Of a stretch of 33,592 bases of DNA, positions 46 through 28,194 are shown piece after piece. The DNA lies in NCBI GenBank assembly GCA_026709915.1, contig JAPORZ010000030.1, forward strand, positions 1-33,592, given 5' to 3'. The translations under genes and the position numbers were made by a program. The first letter of the stretch is position 1, and each line of letters opens with the position of its first letter. This DNA comes from Gammaproteobacteria bacterium (GTDB lineage: Bacteria > Pseudomonadota > Gammaproteobacteria > Eutrophobiales > Eutrophobiaceae). The notes below the pieces were generated by a model. That model worked only from the letters and a program-made list of their open reading frames with translations, was not told the origin of the DNA and did no database searches.

Positions 46-76
46 GGGCACCTCTAAAAATTAGAGGTCACCTCTT
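46..76. repeat. Short copy of the ACCTCTAAA palindromic repeat
   Basis: The segment holds GGGCACCTCTAA, AAA and then TTAGAGGT, followed directly by CACCTCT, so it contains one whole small palindrome and the start of a second (AGAGGTCACCTCT is itself symmetric). Its left arm equals the first hairpin of the long copy at 8116-8274. It sits in the presumed 5' leader of the efflux operon, between the TATAAT at 33-38 and the ribosome site at about 111. Confidence 0.75.
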
Positions 77-8083: not shown

Positions 8084-8115
8084 CGCGTGACAACCTCTAC
8101 TATTCAAACAAAGCG

Positions 8116-8274
8116 TTAAGGGCACCTCTAAAAATTAGAGGTGCCCGTGCAGTATAGGGATATACTGCCATTTTTAATCACGTAAGTGATTGAAAATGAA
8201 GGAAACGGAAAATCGCATTTTTCCGTTTCCGTCTCTAAAAATGCCACGGAGGGCATTTTTAGAGGTTACTTTAA
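8116..8274 (+). repeat. Long structured repeat, copy 1, five consecutive hairpins (sucC leader)
   Basis: Five hairpins follow one another. H1 is at 8120-8146 (12 bp, AAA loop). H2 is at 8149-8168 (8 bp, GGGA loop). H3 is at 8169-8198 (13 bp, GTAA loop, one G-U pair). H4 is at 8201-8230 (12 bp, 6-base loop). H5 is at 8233-8264 (13 bp, ACGGAG loop). The ends TTAAGGGCACCTCTAAA and TTTAGAGGTTACTTTAA match as inverted repeats at 14 of 17 positions. The same element occurs on the other strand at 28023-28194 with compensating changes in its stems. It ends 27 bases before the sucC ATG. Whether it is a mobile repeat, a transcribed RNA or a regulatory leader is not settled by the sequence alone. Confidence 0.85.
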
Positions 8275-12147: not shown

Positions 12148-12936
12148 CTAATCCTCAACCACAATATCCCTGACCTCGTAGATGCCGTGGTGGTTGGGGT
12201 AGTTCAGTTCCAGCACGCGCAGGGCGCCGGCGGAGAGGTCGGGCATTTCCATGACTTTGTACGCCTTGGCCATAAGCACCAGGGCGTCGGGGACTGAGGG
12301 AGTGCGCGAGTAGGATTCCACCACGTTACTGGCGCGGTTGATGGCTGCCAGGTAGGCGCCGCGTTTCATGTAGTAGTCGGCAACGTGCATTTCGTGCCGG
12401 GCCAGACGGTTGCGCAGAAACACCATGCGTTTTTTTGTGTCTTCGGCGTACTGGCTCTGCGGGTATCTCTCCAGGAGCTCGGCGAAAGCCTGGAACGAAG
12501 TCATTGCCGAGCTCTGGTCGCGCTGGCTGGAATCGATGGGGAGGAACCGTTCCGTCAGGCCTTTGCCGCGGTTGAAGTTGACCACGCCTTTCAGGTAGTA
12601 GGCATAGTCGATATGAATGTTCTGTGGGTACAGACGAATGAAACGGTCGCAGGCTGACATGGCTGAATCAAATTCTTCGGTCTTGTAATAGGCATAAGCC
12701 AGGTCCAGCAGCGATTGCTGCCCATACACGCCGAACGGAAAGCGGGTTTCCAAAAATTCGTAATACTCCACCGCCTTGCTGTAATAACCCGAATCCAACG
12801 CGCCTTTGGCCTCGGAGTAAAGACGTTCCACCGTCCAATTGCTGGCCTCATCGTCCTTGTCGCCAAACCAGGCGCAACCGCCGAGCAGCAGGGCGGCTGC
12901 GAAAATACAACAAAGAGCGTTTTTAGAGGTTCCCAT
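12148..12936 (-). CDS. bamD: Outer membrane assembly lipoprotein BamD
   Basis: BamD is the essential TPR lipoprotein of the BAM complex that inserts beta-barrel proteins into the outer membrane. The 262-residue protein has a signal peptide ending in the lipobox LGGC, then tetratricopeptide repeats: EAKGALDSGYYSKAVEYYE, LDLAYAYYKTEEFDSAM, LKGVVNFNRGKG and the LLERYPQSQYAEDTKKRM segment typical of the family. I chose ATG at 12936. It lies inside the stop region of the upstream antitoxin (14-base overlap) and inside a copy of the palindromic repeat, so the protein begins MGTSKNA, as does the internal start of petC. No ribosome site precedes it, so re-initiation after the antitoxin gene is likely. 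A GTG at 12957 is the alternative. Confidence 0.93.
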   Translation of the reverse strand: MGTSKNALCCIFAAALLLGGCAWFGDKDDEASNWTVERLYSEAKGALDSGYYSKAVEYYEFLETRFPFGVYGQQSLLDLAYAYYKTEEFDSAMSACDRFIRLYPQNIHIDYAYYLKGVVNFNRGKGLTERFLPIDSSQRDQSSAMTSFQAFAELLERYPQSQYAEDTKKRMVFLRNRLARHEMHVADYYMKRGAYLAAINRASNVVESYSRTPSVPDALVLMAKAYKVMEMPDLSAGALRVLELNYPNHHGIYEVRDIVVED

Positions 12937-12938
12937 AT
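12899..12938 (-). repeat. Degenerate palindromic repeat at the antitoxin/bamD junction
   Basis: Read on the minus strand, TATGGGAACCTCTAAAAA is followed by a decayed second half (GTATTTTCGC in place of GCATTTTTAG). The left half is the same as that at 15970-15987 in petC. One frame gives the antitoxin ending TAT GGG AAC CTC TAA; the next gives the bamD start ATG GGA ACC TCT AAA. Confidence 0.65.
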
Positions 12939-15890: not shown

Positions 15891-16756
15891 GTGCCCGGTG
15901 TACAGTGGGTTCCCGGCACGGGTGGAACCTGGTTTGCGCACACACACGGAATTTGCTGCCGGCCCCTGTTATGGGAACCTCTAAAAATGCCCCCCATGGC
16001 ATTTTTAGAGGTGGCCTTATCCTGCTGTTACTGCTGGTTGCCGGCCCTGGCTGGACAGCCGGCGGCGGCGATTACCTGATGCATGCTGAGGTTGACCTGT
16101 CTGACCGCAAATCATTGCAACGCGGCGCCCGTACCTTTGTGAACTACTGCCTGAGTTGCCATTCTGCTGCGTTAATGCGCTACAACCGCCTGGGTCGGGA
16201 TCTGAACATCAGCGAAAATGTGCTCAAGGAGAATTTCATGTTCGGCACGGACAAGACGGGCGACACCATGACCGTTGCCCTGAACAGGATGGAGGCGGAA
16301 CAATACTTCGGCATCGTCCCGCCCGACCTGTCGGTGACTGCCCGTTCCCGCGGCGCAAACTGGTTATACACTTACCTGCTGACGTTCTATCGGGATACAT
16401 CCCGCCCCACCGGCGTCAACAATCTGGCTTTCCCCGACACCGCCATGCCGCATGTGTTGTGGGAGTTGCAGGGCTGGCAGGAACCCGTTTACAGAGAGGA
16501 AATTCGCAAAGACGGCAAGGTCACCCGGGTCATCGACCACCTTGAAGTCGTCACCAAACCACAGCAAAAACCGGCCCCCTACCAGGATGAACCCTACGAG
16601 GAAACCGTGCGCGACCTGGTCAACTTCATGGTTTATCTGGGTGAGCCCATCAAGCTCAAACGCAATACCATCGGCGCCTGGGTCATCGTTTACCTGCTGA
16701 TATTGCTGGTGATCGTCTATCTGCTCAAGCGCGAGTACTGGCGGGACGTGAAATGA
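15887..16756 (+). CDS. petC: Ubiquinol-cytochrome c reductase, cytochrome c1 subunit
   Basis: Cytochrome c1 accepts the electron from the Rieske protein and hands it to a soluble cytochrome c. The haem site CLSCH is at residues 88-92 of this reading. MPHVLWELQG is the region of the distal ligand, and one C-terminal helix (IGAWVIVYLLILLVIVYLL) anchors the protein with a basic KREYWRDVK tail. Two starts compete. ATG at 15887 overlaps the petB stop and has GGAG upstream, but puts about 45 residues before the signal helix. ATG at 15971 gives a normal signal peptide beginning MGTSKNA, yet has no ribosome site and lies in a palindromic repeat copy. I give the coupled start. The sspA ATG overlaps the stop by 4 bases. 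Confidence 0.93.
   Translation: MSARCTVGSRHGWNLVCAHTRNLLPAPVMGTSKNAPHGIFRGGLILLLLLVAGPGWTAGGGDYLMHAEVDLSDRKSLQRGARTFVNYCLSCHSAALMRYNRLGRDLNISENVLKENFMFGTDKTGDTMTVALNRMEAEQYFGIVPPDLSVTARSRGANWLYTYLLTFYRDTSRPTGVNNLAFPDTAMPHVLWELQGWQEPVYREEIRKDGKVTRVIDHLEVVTKPQQKPAPYQDEPYEETVRDLVNFMVYLGEPIKLKRNTIGAWVIVYLLILLVIVYLLKREYWRDVK
15971..16019. repeat. Palindromic repeat copy inside the petC signal-peptide region
   Basis: ACCTCTAAAAATGCC (15977-15991) and GGCATTTTTAGAGGT (15998-16012) form a perfect 15-bp stem around a 6-base loop. The copy corresponds to hairpin H5 of the long elements plus the GGCCTTA right end. It is in frame with petC and encodes MGTSKNAPHGIFRGG, the basic n-region before the hydrophobic core. 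Confidence 0.85.
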
Positions 16757-25668: not shown

Positions 25669-26011
25669 GGGAGTCAGCCAGGCAATCGCTGTCGCACCGG
25701 TTGCGGCAGAGGAAAGTCCGGGCTCCACAGGGCAGGGCGCCAGGTAACCCCTGGGCGGCGCGAGCCGACGGCAAGTGCAACAGAAAATATACCGCCGGAC
25801 ATCTGTCCGGTAAGGGTGAAATGGTGCGGTAAGAGCGCACCGCGTGGCTGGCAACAGACACGGCAGGGTAAACCCCGCCTGGAGCAAGGCCAAATAAGGG
25901 GGCGATAATGTGGCCCGCATTGTTCCCGGGTAGGCTGCTAGAGGTGTACGGCGACGTACATCCCAGATGAATGATTGTCCAGGACAGAACCCGGCTTACC
26001 GGCTGACTCCC
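25669..26011 (+). ncRNA. rnpB: RNase P RNA, bacterial type A
   Basis: The catalytic RNA that trims the 5' leader of tRNA precursors. The ends pair as GGGAGTCAGCC (25669-25679) with GGCTGACTCCC (26001-26011), helix P1. Universal core segments are present: GAGGAAAGTCCGGGCTC, AGGGTGAAA followed by GCGGTAAGAGCGCACCG, GGCAACAGAC, GGAGCAAGGCCAAATA, GGGTAGGCTGCT, AGATGAATGATTGTCC and ACAGAACCCGGCTTA. Length near 343 fits type A RNA of proteobacteria. Ends are given to the limits of P1; a few flanking bases may belong. Confidence 0.97.
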
Positions 26012-26035
26012 TGTCTCTAAGGACCCCTTGGTACA

Positions 26036-27991: not shown

Positions 27992-28026
27992 TTAAGGCCA
28001 CCTCTAATTTTTAGAGGTGGCCTTAA
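27992..28026. repeat. Minimal palindromic repeat unit, 35 bp
   Basis: TTAAGGCCACCTCTAA (27992-28007), TTT, then TTAGAGGTGGCCTTAA (28011-28026) is a perfect 16-bp stem ending in TTAA on both sides. It abuts the long element, sharing the right TTAA, and looks like the terminal repeat of the family without its interior. Confidence 0.85.
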
Positions 28027-28194
28027 GGTAACCTCTAAAAATGCCCTCCGTGGCATTTTTAGACACGGAAATGAAAAAGTGTGATTTTTCATTTCCTTCA
28101 TTTTCAAGCACTTACGTGCTTAAAAATGGCAGCACATCCCTGTGCTGCACGGTCACCTCTAATTAATAGAGGTGACCTTTAGAGGTTACCTTAA
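28023..28194 (-). repeat. Long structured repeat, copy 2, with 17-bp terminal inverted repeats
   Basis: Perfect inverted ends TTAAGGTAACCTCTAAA (28023-28039) and TTTAGAGGTTACCTTAA (28178-28194) bound 172 bases. Read on the minus strand the hairpins occur in the same order as in copy 1: H1 28177-28151, H2 28148-28129 (GGGA loop), H3 28128-28099 (GTAA loop), H4 28096-28067, H5 from about 28063 to 28034. Between copies, six stem pairs change on both sides. It sits between yceI and cytochrome b561 and is read in the same sense as both genes. Confidence 0.88.

Follow-up and report, generated by a model that had tools for sequence, protein, structure and literature searches.

MITEs, short non-autonomous DNA transposons with no gene of their own, are usually regarded as decayed transposons without a function. 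The repeat described here, an element of five hairpins (H1 to H5), resembles the MITEs derived from IS5-family insertion sequences in its terminal inverted repeats, 4-bp target duplications, lack of coding sequence, intergenic placement and high copy number. Unlike those MITEs, its interior is not an IS deletion derivative, and its five-hairpin body is conserved and covarying, carries GGA loops, ranges from Gamma- to Zetaproteobacteria and is also found between unrelated ends. CsrA is not among the subjects of a review on MITEs in prokaryotes published in 2024 (PMC10969869).

Three further systems invite comparison. The CsrA-antagonist RNAs CsrB, CsrC, RsmX, RsmY and RsmZ also present GGA in hairpin loops, and the apex CAGGAUG of many H5 hairpins can be set beside the CAGGA(U/A/C)G repeated in the loops of CsrB (PMC7652899). 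Those RNAs have up to about 20 GGA hairpins and come from one regulated gene, whereas our element has two per copy and is dispersed and mobile. REP/BIME sequences (GTAG or CGTC palindromes) are likewise short, intergenic, palindromic and multicopy, but the five-hairpin element differs from them in having target duplications, IS5-type ends and a fixed order of hairpins. Assignment to the REP elements was rejected, as no GTAG or CGTC foot was seen and the ends are GG..CC with 4-bp target duplications. Last, the small RNA derived from the 5′ part of IS200 tnpA is a structured transposable-element RNA for which CsrA titration has been raised as a possibility (PMC12594629); unlike the five-hairpin element, it belongs to the transposase transcript of an IS200 element, and no relation in sequence or structure is expected.

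MITEs and CsrA-antagonist RNAs are both already known. A MITE superfamily that joins a deeply conserved RNA fold to CsrA-type loops was found neither in Rfam nor in the literature searched. In that literature we found no description of the terminal repeat, of the five-hairpin repeat or of CsrA linked to MITEs. A preliminary description of this DNA knew of no named RNA family with such a layout, and none came to light in Rfam, which gave no match in the window (the whole 33,592-nucleotide stretch analysed) at the gathering score; seven diverse loci, searched at E ≤ 1, likewise matched no family, CsrB/Rsm included.

The first window copy is a 151-bp element at 8120–8270 (+), delimited by a covariance-model match over model positions 1–151, its fold and its terminal repeats, GGGCACCTCTAAAAAT and AGTAACCTCTAAAAAT. 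It lies between TTAA target duplications at 8116–8119 and 8271–8274. Fold and covariation show H1 (8120–8146) to be a 12-bp hairpin formed by doubling of the left terminal repeat. The same evidence defines H3 (8169–8198), a 13-bp hairpin with loop GTAA and a T·G pair, and H4 (8201–8230), a 12-bp hairpin with loop TCGCAT. H2 (8149–8168), recognized from sequence and GGA conservation, is an 8-bp hairpin with AGGGAU at its apex, and H5 (8233–8264), recognized from fold and GGA conservation, is the folded right terminal repeat, a 13-bp hairpin with loop ACGGAG; both apices contain the ANGGA motif. All five lie on the plus strand.

The second copy, at 28027–28190 (−), is a variant with an additional outer terminal repeat, GGTAACCTCTAAA, supported by covariance-model match, sequence and fold, and its five hairpins occupy 28027–28177 by the model match. 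Its TTAA duplication stands at 28191–28194 at the element's 5′ end and at 28023–28026, where it is common to the copy and an adjoining solo palindrome. The spans first given for the two copies, 8116–8274 and 28023–28194, included these 4-bp duplications along with the elements proper. Both copies have co-directional flanking genes; one stands upstream of sucC, and the other has yceI on one side and a gene for cytochrome b561 on the other.

The preliminary description held that both copies have the same five hairpins in the same order, and both indeed fold this way, with a minimum free energy of −84.5 kcal/mol for copy 1 (8112–8270; z = −13.2 against shuffled sequence) and −118.3 kcal/mol for the copy 2 locus (z = −17.5). 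Compared base by base, 8120–8270 (+) and 28027–28177 (−) agree at 133 of 151 positions and differ at 18. Of the fourteen differences in stems, twelve make up six matched pair changes, exactly those reported earlier: one in H1 (G-C to T-A), two in H2 (T-A to C-G), one in H3 (T-A to G-C) and two in H4 (C-G to T-A and G-C to A-T). Six matched pairs were reached 0 times in 200,000 random placements of 14 stem substitutions. Only one unmatched stem change had been seen, at the outermost H5 pair (C-G to G-G); it is real, but there is a second at the innermost H1 pair (A-T to T-T).

The repeat is a MITE related to the IS5 family. Where two copies had been described, a covariance model built from 26 own-genome copies has 132 matches in the 2.6-Mb genome. 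These copies start with GGNNACCTCTAAAAAT and finish with its inverse, and those of relatives have the terminal inverted repeats GGAANCTCTGA. Of 63 own-genome sites, 43 have a perfect 4-bp target duplication, where shuffled pairing would give 5.3, and shifting the right end by one base reveals more duplications in relatives. The duplicated site has the consensus T/A-T-A-A in this genome; other hosts have CTAG and CTAA. The earlier account understated the repeat: it overlooked that this is mobile DNA, with its terminal repeats, target duplications and relatives in the IS5 family.

Members of other Eutrophobiaceae genera have the ends GGAANCTCTGATTAA, and autonomous IS5-family elements there carry exactly such ends. 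These autonomous relatives are 1.05–1.18 kb long, encode a DDE transposase and have TTAG/CTAA-type flanks; H2 to H4 are absent from them. One, L196:160-1308, has the ends GGAACCTCTGATTAAGTCCC and flanks TTAG/CTAA, and its transposase reaches 340 bits with NF033581, for which the cut-off is 140. L196, L179, L178 and L195 are all IS5-family elements that share the general form of the MITE ends. No DDE_Tnp_1 transposase (PF01609) was found in the window's own genome, which is a draft assembly. Another short element, at L002:446-605, has ends GGGCACCTCTGAAAA and a different interior; on its minus strand, the loop of a terminal hairpin contains ACGGAT.

Copies are nearly always intergenic (only 4 of 221 sites lie inside an ORF), and across the sites examined their orientation relative to neighbouring genes is random, with 43 co-directional and 52 opposed. 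A strict gene-orientation bias, considered as a sign of cis-regulation, was rejected on these counts. By crude ORF calls, 48 of the own-genome copies (alignment A3) have the H1-side gene directed away from the element and 17 have it directed toward the element, a bias not present in relatives (32/32) or in the wide set (35/38).

We found the five-hairpin element in 25 of 53 Eutrophobiaceae genomes. A pattern scan of named genomes added Thermomonas haemolytica and Rehaibacterium terrae among the Lysobacterales, as well as Pseudohongiella, Methylothermaceae, Acidiferrobacterales and Mariprofundaceae. The pattern used to search the genome_contigs collection required GGAT, so the H2 GGA statistic of that set was set aside. 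A second covariance model, built from 44 diverse copies, matched 74 of 369 Gammaproteobacteria genomes (about a fifth) and 41 of 299 genomes in a phylum-wide draw. Most carriers in this draw came from one non-gammaproteobacterial family (f196), which we infer to be Mariprofundaceae, and the architecture extends to Zetaproteobacteria. A blastn search of the general consensus against plasmids and phages gave no match.

In G018, G004 and one further genome, the H2–H5 body is enclosed by ends that have no relation to those of IS5 type (GCAGGCTGTTGAAAAA, GTTAGTGTCCATC and GTGATGCAAAACC). In each of these versions doubling turns the first end into a hairpin, and the loop of the second usually includes GGA. 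Because the same core stands between unrelated terminal repeats, this argues that the body of the element has a role of its own. Loci with such a core are L250:2009-2171(−), L254:2030-2182(+), L143:3412-3545(−), L039:1501-1656(−) and L250:2590-2748(−). Other copies vary in length. Those at L259:1675-1934, L118:6011-6213, L093, L132 and L152 have apical insertions of 50–100 nt in H2 or H3 that form extra hairpins, with the remaining fold kept. L063, L064, L097, L103, L109 and L158 are shortened to scarcely more than H1, H2 and H5, without H3 and H4.

The matched changes had been read as a sign of selection on a folded single strand, with covariation among further copies as the check, and further copies support that reading. 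In a structure-fitted alignment of 91 diverse copies, double changes occur in 56 of 58 pairs and 94.7% of cells are paired (69% with shuffled partners). The covariation score of 0.629 compares with 0.178 for shuffled and 0.05–0.07 for slid partners. The 44-copy set (A8), whose members are on average 61% and at minimum 35% identical in pairwise comparison, gives 55 of 58. When 48 copies were aligned by MAFFT without guidance and folded with RNAalifold, 25 of 26 predicted pairs had double changes. Stem sequences are nearly wholly different between lineages, with about 95% of pairs preserved.

The strand on which the fold is selected can be read from wobble pairs. Stems were scored with G·U and A·C counted equal and only pairs inside stems examined; on this footing the H1-to-H5 strand of 75 cluster representatives has 88 G·U pairs against 27 of A·C (P = 1e-8). 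At two coarser clusterings the ratios are 68:21 and 40:10, and the family set, which was not chosen by any motif pattern, has 30 G·U and 5 A·C. Among own-genome copies, by contrast, single-side changes are divided between G·U and A·C at 15 and 16 (Fisher P = 0.004 for the contrast with the between-lineage counts). Since these within-genome changes are balanced, there is no mutational bias, and since the excess of G·U arises between lineages and not within the genome, we see the source elements as selected for the fold of a single strand. H5, which is also a transposase end, has no G·U excess in the cluster representatives (7 against 8 A·C). The selected fold of the H1-to-H5 strand is most likely RNA. 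Individual copies look unselected because their single-side changes are symmetric; the simple reading is that lineages still transposing are selected for the fold, and inserted copies decay neutrally.

Two of the five loops are conserved in sequence. Across 70 representatives, GGA is present in the apical loop of 53 of 54 parsed H2 hairpins and 51 of 56 parsed H5 hairpins, as opposed to 9 of 192 loops of H1, H3 and H4. For H2 we prefer the figures of the family set, which was picked by covariance model and not by motif pattern: GGA in 22 of 23 (ANGGA in 21 of 23), with H5 at 21 of 23. A further representative set has GGA in 36 of 38 H5 loops. Within the genome, the H2 GGA shows 0 changes in 37 copies and the base before it has changed in 15, and in the unguided alignment, which contains some rows chosen by pattern, just seven columns are invariant, those of the H2 GGA among them. 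The loop GGGA of H2 had been taken for a GNRA tetraloop; in fact its first base is free and GGA is fixed (AGGA, CGGA, TGGA), which makes it an NGGA loop. GGA is missing from H2 in three of 32 elements of the class and phylum sets. The Zetaproteobacteria-like L304, L309 and L310 have H2 loops CATTGATG, CATAGATG and CACCCATG, which lack GGA, on a retained stem.

Published CsrA/RsmA sites are ANGGAN hexaloops, with the SELEX consensus RUACARGGAUGU (PMC7652899, PMC3791407). Among 64 representatives, partly selected by pattern, 50 have CANGGAUG as the plus-strand apex of H2 and none has it on the minus strand; CANGGATG has the same counts (50 of 64 plus-strand, 0 minus-strand), compared with 0.9 in shuffles, and the full 12-base consensus is exact in 8 of 64. 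We therefore regard the H2 and H5 loops as candidate CsrA/RsmA sites on the H1-to-H5 strand, a prediction from loop sequence; this apparent match to the motif was missed in the preliminary description. The genome has a csrA gene (C31:7379-7534), and the encoded CsrA has L4 and R44, the RNA-binding residues. No csrA was found in 7 of 74 element-bearing genomes, all of them draft assemblies 85–98% complete. Co-occurrence with csrA was dropped as a test, as the gene is nearly universal in the class and the comparison has little power. One property counts against a CsrA reading: the stems of the element are longer than those of most SELEX hairpins, which have at most 4 contiguous pairs (PMC7652899).

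Alongside the observed mobility anatomy, wide distribution, one-strand selection, GGA conservation and csrA gene, we infer transcription, CsrA binding and a benefit to the element. The explanation we consider probable is a superfamily of MITEs that display two sites of CsrA type when transcribed, with an RNA that captures CsrA to the element's advantage. IS5-family DDE transposases would move the MITE in trans through its terminal repeats, leaving 4-bp target duplications of the TTAA/CTAG type. Both ends are doubled into hairpins (H1 and H5) that enclose H2, H3 and H4. Transcription from H1 to H5 would then yield a five-hairpin RNA with GGA exposed in the H2 and H5 loops, through which CsrA dimers may be captured. 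Such capture could aid the spread of the source element by titrating CsrA locally or by protecting and insulating the host transcript; transposase expression is a further candidate effect. Random gene orientation counts against the CsrA reading, as any transcription of many copies would come from the wrong strand. The symmetric single-side changes within the genome, the lack of a G·U excess in H5, the elements with no GGA in H2, the carriers in which csrA was not found and the absence of a DDE_Tnp_1 transposase from the search of this genome weigh on the same side. A larger version is possible but tentative: selfish elements across Gamma- and Zetaproteobacteria may encode a CsrA-capturing RNA, the core having been adopted by several transposon systems, and hundreds of copies may jointly act as a genome-wide CsrA sponge or rewire the CsrA regulon.

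Other explanations account for part of these data. The fold might be that of single-stranded DNA, with hairpins of the H1-to-H5 strand, exposed at replication or in a transposition intermediate, recognized by transposase or a host factor partly through the GGA loops. Random gene orientation and symmetric variation within the genome fit selection at transposition, DNA likewise tolerates G·T better than A·C, and H1 and H5 are the terminal repeats themselves. We nevertheless judge this unlikely: IS5-family DDE transposases act on double-stranded ends, H2 to H4 are internal and missing from the autonomous relatives, the CANGGAUG loop is an RNA–protein motif and many H3 loops are GNRA. A mechanical origin, in which template switching in palindromes at the replication fork copies one arm to the other, would produce covariation without any function. 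All five units are near-perfect palindromes and young copies are rich in matched changes (73 double-changed Watson–Crick cells against 56 single-side cells), so template switching may supply part of the raw changes. As a strand-symmetric process, though, it would give equal G·U and A·C, not the 88:27 seen between lineages, and it fails to predict either the fixing of GGA in just two of five loops or the constant arm lengths and hairpin order across classes. It is already disfavoured, and we hold it to be very improbable.

We give equally little credence to the idea that, as with REP or BOX elements, these are cis-regulators, terminators or mRNA stabilizers that benefit the host and are inherited at fixed sites. 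Copies are rarely inside an ORF, and both in the window are between co-directional genes, as that reading would have it, but orientation is random over the 221 sites, the target duplications mark recent insertion and individual copies are without a sign of selection. As most copies are intergenic and randomly oriented, a cis-regulatory role in the host is unlikely for them.

Here the body of a MITE has been kept in an exact fold, most likely as RNA, over deep time, with a recognizable regulator motif, in about a fifth of the sampled genomes of the class. The exploitation of CsrA by selfish DNA thereby becomes directly testable. If the CsrA-capture explanation is true, a family of selfish elements communicates with a central bacterial regulator through RNA. 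For genome annotators and RNA-family curators, the repeat is a large uncatalogued family. It is also a warning for CsrA-target prediction, as many ANGGA hairpins sit in mobile repeats.

The window also contains three solo palindromes built from the element's ends, each with a perfect 4-bp duplication. Two are 27-bp palindromes of the H1 type, found by sequence and pattern search. The one at 27996–28022 (−), GGCCACCTCTAAAAATTAGAGGTGGCC, adjoins copy 2 and is followed by TTAA at 27992–27995, and the other, at 46–72 (+), is flanked by TCTT (42–45 and 73–76). Both are perfect palindromes that consist of nothing but two fused terminal repeats, yet have clean 4-bp duplications. The third, a 44-bp palindrome of the H5 type with terminal repeats at 15973–16016 (−), was identified by sequence and repeat search and has the target duplication TTAT (15969–15972 and 16017–16020). 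A degenerate H5-type remnant at 12902–12938 (+) is probable but weak, seen in the repeat search and the sequence only. The window also has a class A RNase P RNA at 25670–26014 (+), adjoining the glycine cleavage genes.
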